Shown here: one piece after another, positions 54,188 through 64,000 of the stretch
Layout: the number at the start of each line of letters is the position of its first letter
How positions within the stretch are numbered: position 1 is the stretch's first letter
DNA from: Dokdonella sp.
Lineage (GTDB): Bacteria; Pseudomonadota; Gammaproteobacteria; Xanthomonadales; Rhodanobacteraceae
Length of the DNA: 64,000 bases
Assembly: GCA_019634795.1 (NCBI GenBank)
Contig: JAHCAR010000001.1
Coordinates: 536,981 to 600,980 of the forward strand
Reading direction: 5' to 3'
Program-made: the position numbers and the translations under genes
Notes under the pieces: generated by a model
Told to the model about the DNA's origin: nothing
What the model saw: only the letters and a program-made list of their open reading frames with translations
The model's database searches: none

Positions 54188-55597
<1,410 letters not shown>

Positions 55598-55992
55598 GGG
55601 GCCGAAACCATAAGCAGCCGAGCCCCAAGCCCAATTTCTGCATTGAAACCTTGATAAGTCAGTCAACGTGGATCTGACTTGCCAACTACGAATCGCGAAT
55701 GCGGCAAGCTGATCAGCTTTAGGTACTTCGCAAAGGACCGTACATCAGTCCGCCTAGTCACGACACCACCCAAATGCAATCGCTCGAGTCGCGAAAAAGC
55801 AATGCACATGCTTAATCAGCCGACCCATGATTCTATTTCTACCAAAAGCTCCATCGTAGAAGCTGCGTCGATCAATGTGACGTAGCCTGCTCGAAAAAAG
55901 ACTGATTGCCAAATTTTTCTGAGACACCATCCATCAAATGAGAGCGCGAAAAGAACTGAAGCCAAGCCGCTCTTCATAGCGAGGCAATACGA
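55598..55992. other. AT-richer spacer at the island edge
   Basis: A 395-base gap without a convincing gene. Base composition is visibly lower in GC than the preceding 55 kb. A short open frame of 68 codons (55679-55885) has no ribosome site, domain or signal peptide. The promoter of the DUF262 operon should lie here. I found no tRNA gene or obvious attachment-site repeat. Confidence 0.6.
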
Positions 55993-57183
55993 ATGCGATT
56001 GATACCAAGCGACCCAGACATCGAAACGATCTTTGGGCGAATTGATCGAGGAGACCTTGATCTCCAGCCTGACTTTCAGAGAGGAGAGGTTTGGTCCGTC
56101 GCAAAACAACAGCGTCTCATCGATAGCATACTTCGAGATTGGCACGTCCCTCCCATTCACGTAATCCTGGACCCCAAAAGTCAAGATGTATCGGTTCTTG
56201 ACGGCCAGCAGCGGTTGGTCGCCATACGCGATTTTATAAAAGGCAGATTCCCCATTGACGGGAAAATCGAACCGATTGACGACGACATCACTCGAATTGA
56301 TAGAAAGAACTTTGAAGAGCTCCCAAAGGAAATCAAGCGTCGGATCCTCGGATTTCCTTTACGCCTATTCACACTCGTCGACTATGAGCCATCGGAGCCG
56401 GGAGAACTATTCTTTCGACTGAATCAATTAAGCTCTCTAACCCCCGCTGAACAAAGAAACGCATTCTTTGGTAGCGCAAGGAGACAAGTAAAGGATCTGT
56501 CTTCACATTTAGAACAGCTCAAGCTTGACGGAAGTGTCTTCGGATTTTCGAACGCGAGGATGGCTTACGACGACGTCATCACAAGAGCACTTTTCTTGCT
56601 CGACGCAAACACGCTACTACGAAAAACAACTTCAACTGCACTCGCAGACAAATACCGAAGCGGAGAGCCTTTTTCCCCTAGAGCCACAAAATCCGTCAAA
56701 TGTGCTCTCGATATTATGGCCGCCGCGCAAGAACGAGCGAGCAGTTCCATAAGGCTGAACAAGGCGACCGCACAGTCGTGGATGGTATTTCTCTCCGTCG
56801 CTCCCCGATATGCCAATTCAGGAACAGATAGCTCAGCGATCTTTGCCGACTACATGCGCCAATTCGAATTACATAGAGCCACCATCGGACAAAATGCTTT
56901 ATTTGCTAACAATAATACCGACAAAACTTATTGGGAGAGTTTCTCAGTTGCATTCGACGTCTATGAAGATCGAGCCACATCACGCGTTTCAGACATATCC
57001 TCGGTCGTCCTGCGCGATCTAGTCCTCTGGCTATGCTTTGCTGGATGGTGCAAACAGAAATCCGATTGGCTCTCCCCAAACGATCGCATACAGGCACTCT
57101 GCCAACTCGCAAATCGGAGCCCAATCAACGCGGCTGACATCGAGCGCATTGCTCAGGAACTAGACTGGGGAAGAACTCTGTGA
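55993..57183 (+). CDS. DUF262 (ParB/Srx-fold, GmrS-like) protein, probable defence component
   Basis: 396 residues. The N-terminal third fits DUF262: LDLQPDFQRGEVWSVAKQQRLIDSIL (23-48) and the signature VLDGQQRLVAIRDF (68-81), the DGQQR motif used for nucleotide handling in GmrSD, SspE and related nucleases. RLNQLSSLTPAEQRNAFF at about 140-157 is also typical. No HNH/DUF1524 nuclease domain is present, and the C-terminal 240 residues are helical and unrecognised. It overlaps the next gene by 4 bases (GTGA), so the two form a coupled operon. Low-GC, AT-rich codon use indicates transfer. In DUF262 systems this domain often senses modified DNA or uses NTP; here that is inference. Confidence 0.85.
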   Translation: MRLIPSDPDIETIFGRIDRGDLDLQPDFQRGEVWSVAKQQRLIDSILRDWHVPPIHVILDPKSQDVSVLDGQQRLVAIRDFIKGRFPIDGKIEPIDDDITRIDRKNFEELPKEIKRRILGFPLRLFTLVDYEPSEPGELFFRLNQLSSLTPAEQRNAFFGSARRQVKDLSSHLEQLKLDGSVFGFSNARMAYDDVITRALFLLDANTLLRKTTSTALADKYRSGEPFSPRATKSVKCALDIMAAAQERASSSIRLNKATAQSWMVFLSVAPRYANSGTDSSAIFADYMRQFELHRATIGQNALFANNNTDKTYWESFSVAFDVYEDRATSRVSDISSVVLRDLVLWLCFAGWCKQKSDWLSPNDRIQALCQLANRSPINAADIERIAQELDWGRTL

Positions 57184-58628
57184 AGCACGCCAAGATAGGA
57201 GATATCTGGAAAGAGGCGAGACGATACAATCGTCGCAGCGTTCTTAGCGTATACATAAAATGGAGCGGAAATCCACGCCTAAGCGACGGCGAACTGCGAA
57301 TCACACATCCAATAACGATAATCTGTGGAGAAAATGGCGCCGGCAAGTCTTCCCTGCTTCATTCTATATTTCACGCACTCGTCGACGGAAGCGCGACTAA
57401 TGAGGATGCATACGTCGCACGCCCTCAGACTGGCGTGATCGAAGATGTGATCGTTGAGGTTCGCTCCGCTGAAGACGAAAACGATATAGTTACGCTTCAC
57501 CAAAAAGAGGTTCGCGCCCATTTTACACCAAGTGAAGCTCCTCGAAGGCTGACACTCATTGATCCTGGAATGCATGTTCCAAAGATCATCGATATTGTAA
57601 GCCGAGATGCCAACTTCAATGACCACATCGAAGGCGTTGATCCCAAGATACTCGACACAAAGGCCATCGAACAACTCAGCTATGTTGTTGGCCGAGCGTA
57701 CGATCTTGTGGAAGTATATGAAATTGAGGGGATCGGCCCAAACGGTAGTGTACTTCCTTACTTTATTGTTAGTTCTAACGATGCTAAATACGATATCTCT
57801 GCAATGGGGTACGGGGAGATTGCTAGCTTGTATGTATTATGGTCGATTCTTCGAGCGACCCCTGGCACTTTGTTTCTCATCGAAGAACCCGAAGCCTTTT
57901 TGTCGCCGCGGTCGCAGGCAGCCCTTGTTGACGTGTTTGCCTCGTATGTCCGCGAACGCCAACTGACTTTTATTGTCACGTCGCACTCGGGCGCCATTGC
58001 AACTCGCCTGCGCTATGAAGAAATCATTTACACAACAAGAAGCTCCAGCAGAGTAGCTCTTCATTGTCCAGCAAGAAGAGTAGACCTCGTCTCACGACTC
58101 GGCTTGATCCCGCAACGCCCCTTCCTCATCTTTGTCGAAGACCCGGTAGCCGCCATATTCGCAGATGCACTTGTGTCGAACTATTCGACCCACTTGGCGG
58201 GAGCGGTCGAGTTCGCAGTCTGCAACGGCGAATCAGAAGTCGTTGGAGCATTGCGCTTGATACCACACACGGTACGTTCCGTAGTTCATGTAGGGTTACT
58301 TGACGGCGATCAGCGCGCGAATGGCCCCCACGAGCTAAGGATCTGCTATTTGCCCGGTGATGTCCCACCAGAGAAGTTACTGCATGACTTTTTAAGGTCG
58401 CATTCTGTCAGAGCGGGGGCGTCAATTCTTGAAGTTGAAGAGGATATTTACGTTCGAGCGGCCGCCCACGCGGACGGAATGAACATTCACGACTGGGTAC
58501 ACGAGTTATCCAAAACGCTCAATATCCACTTTGGGGAGATTCTGCGAAGAATCGCGTTGTCATGGTCTAAGACGAATATGGAACATACTAGGGAGTTCAT
58601 TGCATGCATTGAAAGGCTTCTTCACTAG
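57180..58628 (+). CDS. ABC-type AAA ATPase with OLD-like TOPRIM C-terminus
   Basis: 482 residues. SMC/OLD-style ATPase: Walker A GENGAGKSS (50-58), signature-like AMGYGE (208-213), Walker B LFLIEEPEAFLSPR (231-244) and the H-loop-like TSHSGA (267-272). The C-terminal half resembles a TOPRIM nuclease: IFVEDPVAAIFADAL (Glu320) and GLLDGDQR (DGD, 375-377), though the canonical VEGxxE reads VEDPVA, so catalysis is uncertain. The start is a GTG at 57180 within the DUF262 stop overlap. OLD-family and related ATPase-TOPRIM proteins act in phage defence (Gabija GajA, OLD, PARIS AriA are known examples); the pairing with a DUF262 protein makes defence the best guess. Confidence 0.85.
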   Translation: MKHAKIGDIWKEARRYNRRSVLSVYIKWSGNPRLSDGELRITHPITIICGENGAGKSSLLHSIFHALVDGSATNEDAYVARPQTGVIEDVIVEVRSAEDENDIVTLHQKEVRAHFTPSEAPRRLTLIDPGMHVPKIIDIVSRDANFNDHIEGVDPKILDTKAIEQLSYVVGRAYDLVEVYEIEGIGPNGSVLPYFIVSSNDAKYDISAMGYGEIASLYVLWSILRATPGTLFLIEEPEAFLSPRSQAALVDVFASYVRERQLTFIVTSHSGAIATRLRYEEIIYTTRSSSRVALHCPARRVDLVSRLGLIPQRPFLIFVEDPVAAIFADALVSNYSTHLAGAVEFAVCNGESEVVGALRLIPHTVRSVVHVGLLDGDQRANGPHELRICYLPGDVPPEKLLHDFLRSHSVRAGASILEVEEDIYVRAAAHADGMNIHDWVHELSKTLNIHFGEILRRIALSWSKTNMEHTREFIACIERLLH

Positions 58629-59075
58629 TTGCATGCACTCCCGGCATCCTAGATTGGACAATCGGGACACGCAATCTTTACCGGGACTATATCTGCGAGA
58701 CATTCGCGGCACCCGGGACGAAGCCTCGAACTGAAAGGACTCGCACCGAGTATGCAGGCACGACTGGAAAACTCACCTTCTAGGATCGCCATCCAGGACA
58801 CCCGGGAATGGATCTGGAAATTCCTCTTGCCAGTATCCAGAAGCTCGCGAACTGGACACTCAAGATTCGGTTTTGAAACTTTGGCTGTCTAGGTTGCTCG
58901 ATCGGGTCGACATCGCATCTCGAGCCAGTCAGACGCCTCGCGAATCCTCAGCGACGGAATTTTGTTCTCTAACCACATCACTCGCTAACCACAAAGCCCC
59001 CCGCCCAAGCGTATGTTTTAGGGGCCCAACCTGCGCAGAAATTGCTGGTTCAATACAAGATTGTCAAGGCCCGAG
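58629..59075. other. Gap between convergent island genes
   Basis: 447 bases without a supported gene. Short pieces such as AATCGGGACACGCAATC (58670) and CAGGACACCCGGGAA (58796) look like eroded relatives of the GGGACACCCA repeats found further right. No terminator stem stands out. Confidence 0.5.
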
Positions 59076-60227
59076 CTAAGTTTCATTCGGAGGAATTGCT
59101 TCAAGAACGGCATTCGCCAAGCGTAGAACTCTTTGATAGTGTTCAATGTTCTTCTGAAGGACAGCGACCAGCTTTTTCTTTGATCTATTTGATTCCACGG
59201 TCATCCTCGGGAACTGCTCCATTGTGGATTTCATTTCTTCCACCGAATGCGCAGCTTCTTTAATGGTCTCTATGAGGGCCAGGATGTCAACCCGAAAGGC
59301 TTGCCTAGACTCTTGATCGTTTCCAGGATTCAGGGCTATTGCCCTTGCCATAGCGGAAAATCCTTCGTTTGCAGCTAGCTCCAGTTTCGAGATGCGCTTC
59401 TCAGCGTCCTCAGAGTAGGCATCCCAAATTTCCGCACCTCGCTTGATGATTCTGCGAAGTTCCGGAGGCTTGATTCCGGAATCATTTAGATTGCTGAGCT
59501 CCATTCGGTTTGCTTGCGTGCGCTCCGTCATTTGATTCAGTGATGCAGCCTGCTCCTCCATGAGGTCGGTGAGATCCGCGAACGCGGCTTCTTGAATGTC
59601 CATGTAGTCAAGAAATCCGAGTTCGTCTTGGTCAATTTCTTCTGGGGGGGATGAATCGGGACGTGACTCGTCTACTTCTACGAGTTCCTTCGAAAGGGAC
59701 GTCACAAATGTTCTCACCGCTGTGGATAGCTCAATCAGCAAAAGGTTCTCGAATTCCGCTGGGTCCTTGAATGACTTGTAGAGCACGCCATTTTCACCTA
59801 ACCAATCTTTGAACCGTTGCAATACGGACAATTGCTCGGCGTCAATCCGGGTCGGATCTAGCGGTAGAGTTTTCATGTAAACCATAACAAGAGGAATTCC
59901 ACCTCCGCTTTTGTGCTCAACAACTGCAGCTTTTACCTCTTCGATGGAACCGGAGTCCCCTCTCGGGGTTGGCGTTCCGGCACGCGCCCAAAAGGTTGCG
60001 ACGAGAATCTCGAATTTTCCATTCAATTGACGGTTAATCACTTCCTGAACGTCACCTCCGACACCAGCAACAACATCACGATCCCATCTAAGAACTTCAA
60101 GTCGATACCCGAGATCTTGACCTGCGGTGCGATTCAATCTGTCAGTAACGGTGTCCAGCAGCTTTGCCTCTTGAGATACGTCACTTGGAAAGCATGAGAA
60201 AAGTTTGATTAAGCGCACCTGATCCAT
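59076..60227 (-). CDS. DUF4062 / TIR-like N-terminus with long coiled-coil C-terminus
   Basis: 383 residues. Residues 5-125 match the DUF4062 pattern (TIR-related fold): KLFSCFPSDVSQEAKLLDTVTDRLNR, VLRWDRDVVAGVGGDVQEVINRQL, FEILVATFWARAGTPTP, then SGSIEEVKAAV (Glu96/Glu97 at the position of the family acidic pair). This is followed by a mixed segment to about 190 and helical, coiled-coil-like sequence to the end. DUF4062 domains occur at the N-termini of signalling and defence proteins. Here it may be a sensor or effector. Convergent with the DUF262-ATPase operon, so not cotranscribed. AT-richer composition indicates recent acquisition. Confidence 0.72.
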   Translation of the reverse strand: MDQVRLIKLFSCFPSDVSQEAKLLDTVTDRLNRTAGQDLGYRLEVLRWDRDVVAGVGGDVQEVINRQLNGKFEILVATFWARAGTPTPRGDSGSIEEVKAAVVEHKSGGGIPLVMVYMKTLPLDPTRIDAEQLSVLQRFKDWLGENGVLYKSFKDPAEFENLLLIELSTAVRTFVTSLSKELVEVDESRPDSSPPEEIDQDELGFLDYMDIQEAAFADLTDLMEEQAASLNQMTERTQANRMELSNLNDSGIKPPELRRIIKRGAEIWDAYSEDAEKRISKLELAANEGFSAMARAIALNPGNDQESRQAFRVDILALIETIKEAAHSVEEMKSTMEQFPRMTVESNRSKKKLVAVLQKNIEHYQRVLRLANAVLEAIPPNET

Positions 60228-60347
60228 TAGAGAATCCGTCCATAATATGGATAATGTGTATAGAATGGTATGCGCCTATGTCTATTGATGCAATATCTCG
60301 GAGGCGCCTTACCGCGGTCCGAGACTGTAATTTGTACTGTGGGTCCG

Positions 60348-60420
60348 CGATCCGGGACACCCACAATCTGGGGAGAGGCGATCCGGGACACCCATGATTT
60401 GGTCCGAGATCGCCTGACTG
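60348..60420. repeat. Two GGGACACCCA REP-like elements
   Basis: Elements at 60348-60370 (CGATCCGGGACACCCACAAT) and 60378-60420 (GCGATCCGGGACACCCATGA, then TTTGGTCCGAGATCGC). The longer form is an imperfect hairpin: GCGATCCGGGAC pairs with GTCCGAGATCGC around a 12-base loop. It is followed by CTGACTGCCGAATCCGGC. The second element starts a 261-base block that recurs at 63372-63632. The 724-base gap 60228-60951 holds these, a transposase remnant, and shorter pieces at 60646 and 60725; no intact gene. Confidence 0.88.
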
Positions 60421-60586
60421 CCGAATCCGGCGAAGGCTAGGCTCGTAAGCAATGCAAGTTGACCAAAATCGGCGCTTTCCGACGTTCCAGCAAGCCCAAT
60501 TCGACGAACGAGCGACTGATTTCCCGACACCGCCCGCCCTCCATCCTCGGAGAGCCCGAATTGTCGTGGAGTCCTGGTGGTGTGAG

Positions 60587-60638
60587 TCAGGCCGGCTGCG
60601 GTCGCGATAGCCGCTGAGCCGTTCCAATACCCTTGAGC
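60587..60638 (-). pseudogene. Remnant of the 3' end of a RAYT-like transposase gene
   Basis: On the minus strand this encodes LKGIGTAQRLSRPQPA followed by TGA, closely matching the end of the transposase gene at 63582 (LKGIGTAQRLLRQQPA). Nothing of the catalytic domain remains upstream; at about 60640 the similarity stops and unrelated DNA begins. Confidence 0.8.
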
Positions 60639-60951
60639 CGCAACAACCGGGACATCCACAATCTCGCACAATCTCGTCAACGGACTACGCTCGGAGTAGG
60701 CAAATTCATACAAGGGACGAGATCTTAGACACCCACTCTCTTCACAGCTGGATCCTCACAGCCCAGTCCTGGCCTTGGAACACTCGTTGGGCTCCATACC
60801 TGCGTCGAGTCCGAGCAGATTCAACTCGGTTGGCTTCAGGTAGCCGCTCTTCCTTGCCTGTCTGAGGCTTGCAAGTCGCCGGCTCGCGCAAGTGCTGATT
60901 CAGCCTCGCACCCATGCAATACTCTGGCGAATCCGAATCCGAGAGCTTCCC

Positions 60952-61308
60952 ATGAAAGACGTTGCTCTATTCTTGCTACTGATCCTCCAGTCCCCATTGG
61001 CTTTGGCTAATTTTTGGAACGCTTCCGATCTTCACGAGCACTTGCACGCGGCTGACGAAGACAAAGCAAATCGCGAGTACCATGAGGCCGTCCAAGGTTT
61101 GGCCTATGTGTTGGGGATTTCAGACTTTCTTTCAAGCGCGGGTGCGCTATGTCCGCCAGTCGGCACGAGCGCGGGCGATGTGGTCAACACGGTCAGACTT
61201 TACGTTGATGTACTGCTAGATCAGGAGGGCAAAGCAAGATTGCGCGAGAGTTCTGCCAGCGAAGTAACCTCTCGCGCGCTACTTGAGCGCTGGAAATGTA
61301 AGAAGTAG
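60952..61308 (+). CDS. Secreted Rap1a/Tai-like small protein
   Basis: 118 residues with a signal peptide (MKDVALFLLLILQSPLALA). The mature part shows YHEAVQGLAYVLGISDFLSSAGALCPPVGTSAGDVVNTVRLYVDVLLDQEG and ends ALLERWKCKK. The GxxYxxGISD, CPP and terminal WxC spacing resembles the Rap1a/Tai domain, named for periplasmic immunity proteins against type VI secretion amidases. Many members have no adjacent toxin, and none is seen here. The ATG at 60952 gives the signal peptide. It lies as an orphan between repeat elements. Confidence 0.65.
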   Translation: MKDVALFLLLILQSPLALANFWNASDLHEHLHAADEDKANREYHEAVQGLAYVLGISDFLSSAGALCPPVGTSAGDVVNTVRLYVDVLLDQEGKARLRESSASEVTSRALLERWKCKK

Positions 61309-61317
61309 ATGAGGAAA

Positions 61318-61920
61318 GAGACGCAGTCCACGATCCGGGACACCCATTTTCTTTACAGCTCGGCCCGCACAGCCCAACCCTGCCCTTCCTTCACTCTTCG
61401 GGCATCAGATCCGCGTCCATGGAGGTCAGATTCTCCCCACTCGGCTTCAGGTAGCCGCCCTTTGACGTCGATCGTCGATTTGCACCGAACAACCGGGACA
61501 CCCACTTTTTGGACCGGTATGCTCGCCGAAATCTTTGGTGTCCTGGCTCACCCGGATCATCCCTCAGAACGGCAACCTTGCGACCCGATCCCGTGGCGAC
61601 GCTTTTAAAAGTGTTTCGAACAAGGATCGCCGGCGCGATCCGGGACACCCACTTTCTGGTCCCGTATGCTTTCAGAATTTTTGACTTTCCCGGATTGCTC
61701 GAGGGGCGCAGTTGGCTGAATTTCTGACATGGATTGGTAGTGAGGCCATCGTCTTTGTCGCGATAGTGGCAGGTATGAGTCTGGGCGCTTTGCTATTTCG
61801 TAGATCGCGATCCGGGACACCCATAATTTGGTCCGAGATCGCCTGACTGAAGACAGCGCGATCTGGGACACCGCGCGATCTGGCGCGCGATCTGGGACAC
61901 CCACTTTTTGATCCGGCATG
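61318..61920. repeat. Scattered GGGACACCCA elements in a gene-free stretch
   Basis: REP-like elements start at about 61331, 61490, 61636, 61806, 61860 and 61890. Most have the form CGATCCGGGACACCCACTTT or the ATAATTTGGTCCGAGATCGC form. The CACTTT type is followed by TCTGGTCCCGTATGC, so GGGAC pairs with GTCCC. No intact gene is supported between 61309 and 61993. Confidence 0.85.
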
Positions 61921-61993
61921 CTTGCCGAAATCATGGATGGTCCTGACAATCTCTGCGGTCCACTATCCGCGAGCTGACCTGGGGGTTTTTGGC

Positions 61994-62347
61994 ATGAAAC
62001 ATGCGTTTCGGTCGACCGCTTTTGCAATGATCCTCATGGGAGGCTTCGCCTATGCGTGCATCTCAATCGCGGAGCCTCCGGTTGACGGAAATCCGTACCG
62101 AATAACTGCAAAGACCGTGCGGTTTGTACCCATGGGAATGTTTGTGGACGACCCTCACTATGCCCTTGCCCTGGTCAATCTCGACAGCGAGCAATGCTTT
62201 GCGGTAACACCGCCGGGAGGCATGAAAATATTCACGGTGAGAAATTACATGGTCGTTGACGAGCCCCAGATACCCGGCGCGATAAGAACCGCATTGATCG
62301 ACCTCTACCCTGAGTGCCGGATTGTCCGGTTGGCGGACGCGAACTAG
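61994..62347 (+). CDS. Small exported protein of unknown function
   Basis: 117 residues. The N-terminus MKHAFRSTAFAMILMGGFAYACISIA is a signal peptide, possibly of a lipoprotein (Cys at residue 22) though the lipobox is weak. The mature part (PYRITAKTVRFVPMGMFVDDPHYALALVNLDSEQCFAVTPPGGMKIF) has no family I recognise. It lies between repeat elements; a REP-like element begins 6 bases past the stop. The start is the ATG that yields the leader; no strong ribosome site. Confidence 0.55.
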   Translation: MKHAFRSTAFAMILMGGFAYACISIAEPPVDGNPYRITAKTVRFVPMGMFVDDPHYALALVNLDSEQCFAVTPPGGMKIFTVRNYMVVDEPQIPGAIRTALIDLYPECRIVRLADAN

Positions 62348-62352
62348 AGGGC

Positions 62353-62680
62353 GCGATCCGCGACATCTGGGCGCGATCCGGGACATCCGCGATCCGGGAC
62401 ATCCACAATCTCGTCAATAATGCGATCCGGGACACCCATAATTTGGTCCGAGATCGCCTGACTGCACGGCAACTGGGACACCCATCAATTGTCCTGGAAG
62501 CCCCTGATGGCGCAATCCGCTGTCGGCTCGGTCGGAACCTTGGCCGTGAGCGGTGCGATTCGGCCAAAATCCGCTCAAGGCGCGATCCGGGACACCCATA
62601 ATTTGGTCCGAGATCGCCTGACTGCTCAATCCGGCATCAACCGGCAACTGGGACACCCATCAATTGTCGCTACCGGAATC
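62353..62680. repeat. Cluster of GGGACACCCA / GGGACATCC elements
   Basis: Elements at about 62353, 62371, 62389, 62421-62464, 62474, 62581-62624 and 62648. Two are full ATAATTTGGTCCGAGATCGC hairpins (62421, 62581). Each is followed about 10-25 bases later by GGCAACTGGGACACCCATCA then ATTGTC, so the larger unit is itself duplicated at a spacing of about 160-175 bases. Confidence 0.88.
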
Positions 62681-62727
62681 GCGAGGAAAAATGCTGCAAC
62701 GAGGAACGTCAGTCCTTTGGTTTTCAT
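62626..62727 (-). pseudogene. Signal-peptide fragment truncated by a REP-like element
   Basis: The minus-strand frame from 62727 encodes MKTKGLTFLVAAFFLAIP and VATIDGCPSC, a good signal peptide that runs straight into the repeat (TTGATGGGTGTCCCAGTTGC) and stops at 62626. The rest of the gene is absent, so the element appears to have replaced or cut off the mature part. Confidence 0.55.
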
Positions 62728-62735
62728 AGGAATCC

Positions 62736-63032
62736 TTAGTGCATACGTGCGACAGTCGTCCCGACCAAGCCGACGAAGAGAGAAGCGGCATCGCCTAAAC
62801 CCAAGACTAGAAGCCAAAGCCACCGCCCGTTCTTGAGAGCGGTGGCCAGCCAGATCGAAACTACTGGACCGAAGACAAGCCCGACGATGGACCAGATCGT
62901 GAAGGTAATGAACTGGACGTTGTCAACCTCACCGTTCTCCGGTCCAAACAAAGACCAACCAAAATAGGCGATGGGTGGCAACATCGCTGCCAGGCCGATA
63001 CCGAGCAAAACGCGTGAAGTCGTGGTCTTCAT
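62736..63032 (-). CDS. Small membrane protein of unknown function
   Basis: 98 residues with three hydrophobic segments: VLLGIGLAAMLPPIAYFGWSLF, FITFTIWSIVGLVFGPVVSIWLATAL and WLWLLVLGLGDAASLFVGLVGTTVA. No family recognised. It begins MKTTTSRV at 63032 and ends 8 bases before the truncated signal-peptide gene start, suggesting the two once formed an operon. It is an orphan in the repeat-rich island. Confidence 0.6.
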   Translation of the reverse strand: MKTTTSRVLLGIGLAAMLPPIAYFGWSLFGPENGEVDNVQFITFTIWSIVGLVFGPVVSIWLATALKNGRWLWLLVLGLGDAASLFVGLVGTTVARMH

Positions 63033-63119
63033 CAGTACACCTACATGGAGTCGATTCGCCAGACTCCGTTCCGGTCACGAGCGACGTGGAGAGGATAGCC
63101 GTTTAGTTGACCGCCCACT

Positions 63120-63420
63120 TCTTGCCCCGATCCGGGACACCCATAATTTGGTCCCACGGTGCCCCGATCCGCGGCGCGATCCGGGACACCCACTTTCTGG
63201 TCCCGTATGCTTTCGCACGATCAGCGCACGATCAGGCGCACGATCAGGGACACCCACAATTTGGTCCGAGATCGCCTGACTGCAGTATCCGGCCTCGGCT
63301 CGGCTCGTAGGCAATGCCAATTGGCCCAAATCGGCGTTTTCCGGTGTTCCAGCTCGCGCCATTCGATAACACGCGATCCGGGACACCCATAATTTGGTCC
63401 GAGATCGCCTGACTGCCGAA
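63120..63420. repeat. Cluster of GGGACACCCA elements next to the transposase gene
   Basis: Elements at about 63126 (ATAATTTGGTCCCACGG form), 63176 (CACTTTCTGGTCCCGTATGC form), 63238 and 63372 (both full ATAATTTGG/ACAATTTGG..CCGAGATCGC form). The last two are each followed by about 100 bases of shared sequence (GGCTCGGCTCGTA, CAAATCGGCGTTTTCCGG), ending 160 bases before the transposase stop. They mark the 3' side of the gene. Confidence 0.88.
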
Positions 63421-63581
63421 TCCGGCGTCGGCTCGGCTCGTACGCAACGCGAATTGGCCCAAATCGGCGTTTTCCGGCCTGCCAGAAAGCCCCATTCGAC
63501 GAACGAGCGGCCGATTTTCCGACACCGCCCGCGCTCCATCCTCGGAGAACCCGATTCGTCGTGGAGTCCTGGTGGTGTGAG

Positions 63582-64000
63582 TCAGGCTGGCTGCTGTCGC
63601 AATAGCCGCTGAGCCGTCCCGATGCCCTTGAGCCAGCCCTGCCCCATCGCCACGGCTTTCTCGATCAGGGCCTGGGCGGAGCCGATCGCTCGCCAGTAGT
63701 TGGTTTCGGTGCCGAGCATCTGCTGATGCCATTGGCGTTCGCTCAGGCCAAGCTTGCGCAGGACGGGCGGTTCTTTCGCCTCGATGCGACCGCGCTTGTC
63801 GGCCCGGGTGAGTCGGGCGGTCCAGTCGATCAGGTCGAGGTAGTCTTGGGTGGTGATGGAAGCAAGACCGGACGCCACTGCGGTGCTGATCGAGGCCAGC
63901 GGCTGTTGCGCGCGATCGGGATTCTCGCGAAGGGTCGCGATTCGATGATGGGCGCTGGTGTGGATCGATGACTCGAGGTTCTCGGCAACACCGGCCCGGA
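63582..64000 (-). CDS. RAYT-like Y1 transposase, C-terminal part (cut by window edge)
   Basis: About 138 C-terminal residues are visible. The frame runs open from the window edge: RAGVAENLESSIHTSAHH corresponds to the NPIRAGIAETPEGSDYTSI end of the Y1/TnpA_REP catalytic domain in Lysobacterales transposases. The C-terminal extension follows (DYLDLIDWTARLTRADKRGRI, PPVLRKLGLSERQW, GTETNYWRAIGSAQAL, WLKGIGTAQRLLRQQPA). The catalytic HUH and Tyr residues lie outside the window. Such proteins mobilise REP palindromes; many GGGACACCCA palindromes lie just downstream, so it may be their cognate enzyme (inference). Confidence 0.78.
   Translation of the reverse strand, partial: RAGVAENLESSIHTSAHHRIATLRENPDRAQQPLASISTAVASGLASITTQDYLDLIDWTARLTRADKRGRIEAKEPPVLRKLGLSERQWHQQMLGTETNYWRAIGSAQALIEKAVAMGQGWLKGIGTAQRLLRQQPA

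Follow-up and report, generated by a model that had tools for sequence, protein, structure and literature searches.

The DUF262 and ATPase genes and their products

Two overlapping genes of a Dokdonella sp. genome, found near the end of a 64,000-nucleotide stretch referred to here as the window (GenBank assembly GCA_019634795.1, contig JAHCAR010000001.1, positions 536,981 to 600,980), are best read as a two-gene relative of the Menshen system. The first, an open reading frame (ORF) of 396 amino acids (aa) on the + strand, encodes a DUF262 protein (window positions 55993-57183). The second, a 482-aa ORF on the same strand with a GTG start, encodes an ABC ATPase (57180-58628). As read from the sequence, the stop of the DUF262 gene and the start of the ATPase gene overlap at 57180-57183 in CTGTGAAG, where the GTG at 57180 and the TGA at 57181 have GTGA in common. 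Both this overlap and the AT-richer DNA at the locus had been described in the initial annotation, which was made without database searches, and both are confirmed. The guanine-plus-cytosine (GC) content is 0.496 across the pair vs 0.667 for window positions 1-55597. The fall begins past a gene labelled pntB by inspection; by the ORF positions, the low-GC stretch starts with the 395 bases (55598-55992) that separate the 3′ end of pntB from the pair. The stretch carrying the pair looks like a foreign, variable setting. Since the contig terminates at window base 64000, the right limit of the low-GC island is out of view.

The DUF262 protein matches Pfam GmrSD_N (1.4e-17, residues 10-159) and is of the GmrS/ParB-Srx-like NTPase type. 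It carries all three GmrS motifs, FQR at residue 28, DGQQR at 70 and FxxxN at 140, and Q29 R30, D70 G71, Q73 R74, F140 and N144 are invariant in 49/49 rows of an alignment of 48 relatives with the window protein. No HNH or DUF1524 domain was detected in a Pfam scan up to E 1, in which the two other sub-threshold families were neither; the scan and the motif positions agree with the earlier description of a DGQQR protein without a detectable HNH domain. Outside this domain the protein is predicted to be helical. The AF2 models of the two proteins of the pair have mean pLDDT values of 88.0 and 90.4. When the DUF262 model was searched with Foldseek, the top match was BrxU (7p9k; 1.4e-5, with a query TM-score of 0.27), followed by non-significant ParB-like folds, and a profile search of the PDB gave nothing at E 0.01.

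The ATPase is OLD-like and an OLD-type ABC domain is present, as seen from its Pfam matches (AAA_21, 4.9e-14; SMC_N, 4.5e-7), from motifs of OLD/SMC type (GENGAGKS at 50, MGYGE at 209, EEPE at 235 and SHS at 268), and from a Foldseek search in which the Thermus OLD nuclease 6p74 was the best match (4.4e-12), with GajA and retron effectors next. The C-terminal motifs VED at 319, DGD at 375 and HDW at 437 include the key residues E320, D375 and D377, which are invariant in 49/49 ATPase rows and retained in 55/56 of a wider set. In the AF2 model, strands alternate with helices in this part of the protein, E320 following strand 315-319 and D375-x-D377 following strand 369-374. The PADLOC model ATPase-Toprim_I-B matches residues 218-382 (8.6e-16), and the region aligns by profile with M55B, the TOPRIM-like protein of a PDC-M55 locus elsewhere in this genome (score 35.5 at 66% probability; 40 control proteins scored at most 26.6). 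On the PADLOC match, the invariant residues, the predicted topology, the fold search and the M55B alignment, the C-terminal domain is probably, and with good support, a TOPRIM domain.

Conservation, ancestry and surroundings of the pair

Conserved adjacency in other genomes, named as a check in the initial annotation, is clearly seen. When 84,980 species were scanned, 125 relatives were obtained, of which 80 were taken as loci, and a viral scan gave three more. Strong DUF262 relatives were kept at 56 loci, 54 from the species scan and two from the viral scan, after the removal of L101 (a DUF262 ORF of 99 aa and no ATPase match), L102 (at a contig edge, no ORF match) and L137 (a weak viral match, no ATPase). 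A matching ATPase gene lies directly downstream of the DUF262 gene in 54/56; the two overlap in 47, by exactly four bases in 33. The ATPase start was taken as the one closest to the DUF262 stop, a choice that biases the count towards overlaps. The partnerless loci are L080, whose contig ends 320 bases past the DUF262 gene, and L096, with a DUF262 ORF of 225 aa and a Walker-A-like motif in a downstream frame, but no ORF of at least 40 aa that matches the ATPase. The partner ORF is short in L088, L090 and L093. With the extra genome L131 the relatives number 57, or 52 at 90% identity, and their row labels include Pseudomonadota, Actinomycetota, Bacillota, Verrucomicrobiota, Hydrogenedentota and one archaeal bin. 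Because 54/56 relatives keep both genes, the pairing is beyond chance, and the pair is supported as a conserved two-gene unit. Pairwise distances of the DUF262 and ATPase proteins correlate (r 0.88, 51 rows; 0/2000 permutations as high), a correlation confounded by shared lineage.

The window's genome aside, the pair was found in 0/397 genomes of a phylum sample and 0/196 of a family sample, and with the ATPase as query in 1/368 of a class sample (G332); misses are possible in the phylum-sample scan, which scored at most four candidates per genome, as did the search that yielded L183, a locus considered below. DUF262 relatives occur in 105 plasmid records, all at <60% identity, and with L051 (Azonexus hydrophilus) as query no plasmid match was obtained at E 1e-30 and no phage match at 1e-20. 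This rare, patchy distribution suggests that the pair has spread horizontally.

A DUF262 tree of 95 rows (L080, L096, L097, L093 and L136 left out) shows that the ancestry of the pair's DUF262 protein is separate from that of NsnA, the DUF262 protein of Menshen. One branch (100/99) sets apart the window's family, with 53 rows, and another (99/95) sets apart 20 NsnA-like rows, defined by >150 bits to L011. An NsnB-like gene is present within 3 kb in 19/20 NsnA-like rows. Of the other DUF262 loci, 0/21 have any of the three kinds of ATPase looked for at a distance of up to 3 kb, though 15 of these 21 are loci of only a few kb. With a midpoint root, used for display only, nine other DUF262 rows are placed on the window's side.

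The ATPase gene is followed by 447 bases without a listed gene, and then by a convergent 383-aa ORF on the - strand (59076-60227). The N-terminal region of its product (residues 4-249) matches the PADLOC candidate PDC-S60 (1.3e-36). It had been annotated as a TIR-related or DUF4062 protein, for which the searches gave no support: Pfam matches were sub-threshold and unrelated, and no PDB match was better than E 0.9. Farther on, window 60344-63430 holds nine copies of a 58-base repeat with the core GGGACACCC (at least 60% identity), and 63488-64000 matches stretches of two other genomes (G002 and G003) that adjoin genes labelled RAYT-like transposase by inspection.

On the other side, the last 72 bases of pntB (window 55526-55597) recur at ~90% identity on contig C50 of the same genome (G000:C50:77600-77672; L179:600-674), ~25 bases from the DUF262 gene of the three-gene PDC-M55 locus. 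Since two DUF262/OLD loci each lie beside a pntB 3′ end, this end is perhaps an integration hotspot. The DNA downstream of pntB differs in five genomes of the same genus (L173, L175-L178): two have low-GC segments, two are high in GC, and the fifth carries part of pntB in duplicate together with a gene that is acyltransferase-like by inspection.

Proposed function and its alternatives

In our view the two genes probably form a defence system directed at phages or other mobile DNA, with a DUF262 sensor and an OLD ATPase-TOPRIM effector. The DUF262 protein would hydrolyse nucleoside triphosphates (NTP) and sense foreign DNA, plausibly by its modified bases, on the model of the GmrSD family. It would work with the OLD-type ABC ATPase, whose C-terminal TOPRIM domain, once licensed, may cut nucleic acid. 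These roles are drawn by analogy with two sources. In GmrSD-family proteins, DUF262 is held to recognise modification and, through NTP hydrolysis, to govern a nuclease (PMC11411939; PMC12137116). HEC-04, an ABC ATPase-TOPRIM protein, is reported to be active against T4 and T5, and not against T7 or lambda (PMC12111858). We likewise infer a physical complex, a nuclease activity, its substrate and trigger, and an outcome, either direct restriction or abortive infection.

With respect to enrichment near known defence genes, a further check proposed with the initial annotation, the neighbourhoods are modestly richer. Neighbours were taken as longest-ORF calls of at least 150 aa, up to three per side. 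At E up to 1e-70, PADLOC models matched ~9/117 neighbours of 20 loci vs ~1/116 proteins elsewhere in the same 20 genomes (Fisher p 0.019), numbers of proteins that are inferred from per-model counts, with models of one name assumed to match one protein set. The ~9 matches are four methyltransferases and one each of GajA, GajB, RmrA, RmrT and PDC-S02. At E 1e-10, 155 PADLOC families match the neighbours vs 15 for the controls, several models naming the same gene.

Several observations weigh against this defence reading. The enrichment is modest, a single methyltransferase family accounts for four of the nine neighbour matches, and mad3, the commonest control family, matched 5/116 at E 1e-10. 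The annotated ATPase-TOPRIM architecture holds for the OLD-like ATPase and the invariant E and DxD residues, and the TOPRIM part is less firm: no Pfam TOPRIM model is among the matches of the window ATPase (17 families up to E 1) or among the 25 of 27 Pfam families listed for 49 family members, and the region had no profile match to five P-loop neighbour proteins, one a GajA. The fold alignments of the pair proteins have large root-mean-square deviations (19.6 and 16.9) and low TM-scores; for the ATPase this indicates that its domains are placed differently from those of the OLD structures. IbfA, the studied relative of HEC-04, is reported to alter phage gene expression without ATP depletion, and the available part of its account does not mention nuclease activity (PMC12111858). 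Finally, membership of the OLD family does not imply a defensive role: Cran1 has a cell-cycle function (PMC12796447).

A narrower form of the two-gene defence reading, and one not exclusive of it, is that the pair is an accessory to restriction-modification (R-M), similar to type IV restriction, which either attacks DNA that is protected from ordinary restriction by its modification or recognises the mark set by a partner methyltransferase. This is possible, and we advance it tentatively. In a nine-locus actinobacterial clade (100/100), 8/9 loci adjoin an Eco57I/N6-type methyltransferase gene and 7/9 a gene for a ~350-aa candidate endonuclease, judged by eye. In two of the eight the methyltransferase gene is downstream on the opposite strand, so that the link is not due to operon inheritance alone. 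There is a precedent in TgvAB, which acts on hypermodified phages and is located within a type I R-M cluster (PMC11411939). Against this reading, the window and, in the DNA fetched, the remaining 47 loci have no match to the methyltransferase or to the candidate endonuclease, and the latter has no Pfam match (L071, L095) or PADLOC match (L095) in the copies scanned. The ~350-aa protein, in which a GPELLISTKRM-like stretch is conserved (L071, L073, L077, L078, L081, L094, L095), is possibly a new family of restriction endonucleases.

It is less likely that the pair is a divergent Menshen, with NsnA and NsnB present and a fused TOPRIM domain in place of the NsnC effector. NsnA (110.8 bits) and NsnB (77.1 bits) are the best PADLOC names for the two proteins, the gene order with overlap is identical, and NsnC has several PADLOC models, hence effectors vary. 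However, a true NsnA-NsnB-NsnC set in a genome of the same genus scores far higher, at 471, 374.1 and 260.9 bits, the best stretch of the window ATPase against NsnB covers residues 200-282 only, and the tree splits the two DUF262 groups. By PADLOC the gene next to the pair in the window is not NsnC, no NsnC-like neighbour family recurs in 55 loci, and the most recurrent third gene, present in 8/55, is a methyltransferase.

That the pair is a housekeeping or regulatory module of the OLD family in variable DNA, for which Cran1 is the precedent, is improbable in view of its rare and patchy occurrence over several phyla, its low-GC setting, its defence-gene neighbours, and an integrase family beside 5/55 loci (one member confirmed by Pfam). 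A single system of three genes that includes the PDC-S60-like protein is most improbable, and the facing gene was rejected as a component: it is adjacent and convergent in the window, but L073 alone among 60 loci has a match, of 24.4 bits and ~3 kb from the pair.

Returning to the reading of a DUF262 sensor with an OLD effector, a bolder form of it, which we hold to be somewhat short of an even prospect, is that the pair is a distinct, horizontally spread system joining a ParB-fold (DUF262) NTPase sensor to a new class of OLD ATPase-TOPRIM effector. It would stand alongside Menshen and PDC-M55 as a system of its own, not as a subtype, and its actinobacterial form would be coupled to an R-M methyltransferase, so that the pair reads or polices DNA modification. 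If this is true, DUF262 and an OLD-type ATPase were brought together, or their combination diversified, on more than one occasion, with the nuclease supplied by its own gene, by a variable third gene or by a fused TOPRIM domain. With the pair, the role of nuclease-less DUF262 proteins can be tested on two proteins, and the form linked to a methyltransferase allows one to ask directly whether DUF262 reads DNA modification.

Comparison with known systems

GmrSD, BrxU, SspE and TgvAB have in common with the window protein a DUF262 domain with QR, DGQQR and FxxxN motifs, and BrxU is its best fold match. They differ in that the window DUF262 protein has no detected DUF1524 or HNH domain and is partnered by an OLD-like ATPase.

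The OLD family, which includes TsOLD, GajA, PARIS AriA/AriB and the retron-Eco8 effector, has the OLD-type ABC ATPase and TOPRIM-like domain seen here, and chains of TsOLD, GajA and Eco8 are among the top fold matches of the window ATPase. The latter is not split and has no helicase or reverse transcriptase companion, and a DUF262 partner is not included in the OLD class scheme, in the portions available (PMC10568477; PMC12796447). Unlike Gabija, there is no GajB helicase beside the ATPase, whose neighbours are the DUF262 gene and the PDC-S60-like gene. A related ATPase-TOPRIM gene in another genome (G504, L132:7817-9289) lies between genes for a helicase and a DUF1156-like methylase and resembles an Hma locus, these labels being by inspection.

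HEC-04 and IbfA also have the ATPase-TOPRIM architecture. The HEC-04 profile matches the window ATPase at residues 157-413 (57.8 bits, 1.8e-16) and that of L049 (Lysobacter tabacisoli) at residues 11-423; it scores 41-88 bits across six family proteins scanned and is the top PADLOC name for four of the five other than the window's. A HEC-04-type ATPase-TOPRIM gene of 170 bits (G647, L183:6184-7638) still finds the pair's ATPase family. On these grounds the pair looks like a HEC-04-like ATPase-TOPRIM protein joined to its own DUF262 lineage. The similarity is remote, however, and no DUF262 partner is mentioned in the available account of HEC-04 (PMC12111858). The 14 kb around the HEC-04-type gene of L183 contain no match to the window DUF262 protein, a further point against the two-gene reading.

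The PDC-M55 locus on C50 also brings together an ABC ATPase (M55A, 3.7e-70), a TOPRIM-like protein (M55B, 7.6e-23) and a DUF262 protein (M55C, 9.2e-119). In contrast to the pair, these are three separate genes with the TOPRIM unfused, and the 571-aa DUF262 protein is on a very long branch. M55A-C are not among the PADLOC matches listed for the window pair.

In the initial annotation no described system was known to join DUF262 to an OLD-like ATPase, and this is not borne out. Menshen, with DUF262 (NsnA), an OLD-like ATPase (NsnB) and NsnC, has been published (PMC10952713), and the same-genus genome has the full set. A system without precedent was thus rejected, Menshen and HEC-04 being close in kind. 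The two-gene family itself is apparently undescribed: none of the Menshen and OLD papers covered, which do not include the 2020 ABC-ATPase survey or the 2025 paper on domain polymorphism in Menshen, was seen to report it. The available part of a 2026 BREX paper credits Aravind and colleagues with an earlier account of OLD-ABC neighbourhoods linked to TOPRIM, in what we take to be the 2020 survey. In both Menshen and the pair, a DUF262 gene is followed by an overlapping gene for an OLD-like ABC ATPase. The Menshen ATPase is mostly 360-380 aa, whereas that of the pair is ~480 aa with a fused TOPRIM-like domain; the window DUF262 protein falls short of an NsnA-type score and belongs to a separate tree group; and Menshen has NsnC as a third gene, where the pair is seen as two.

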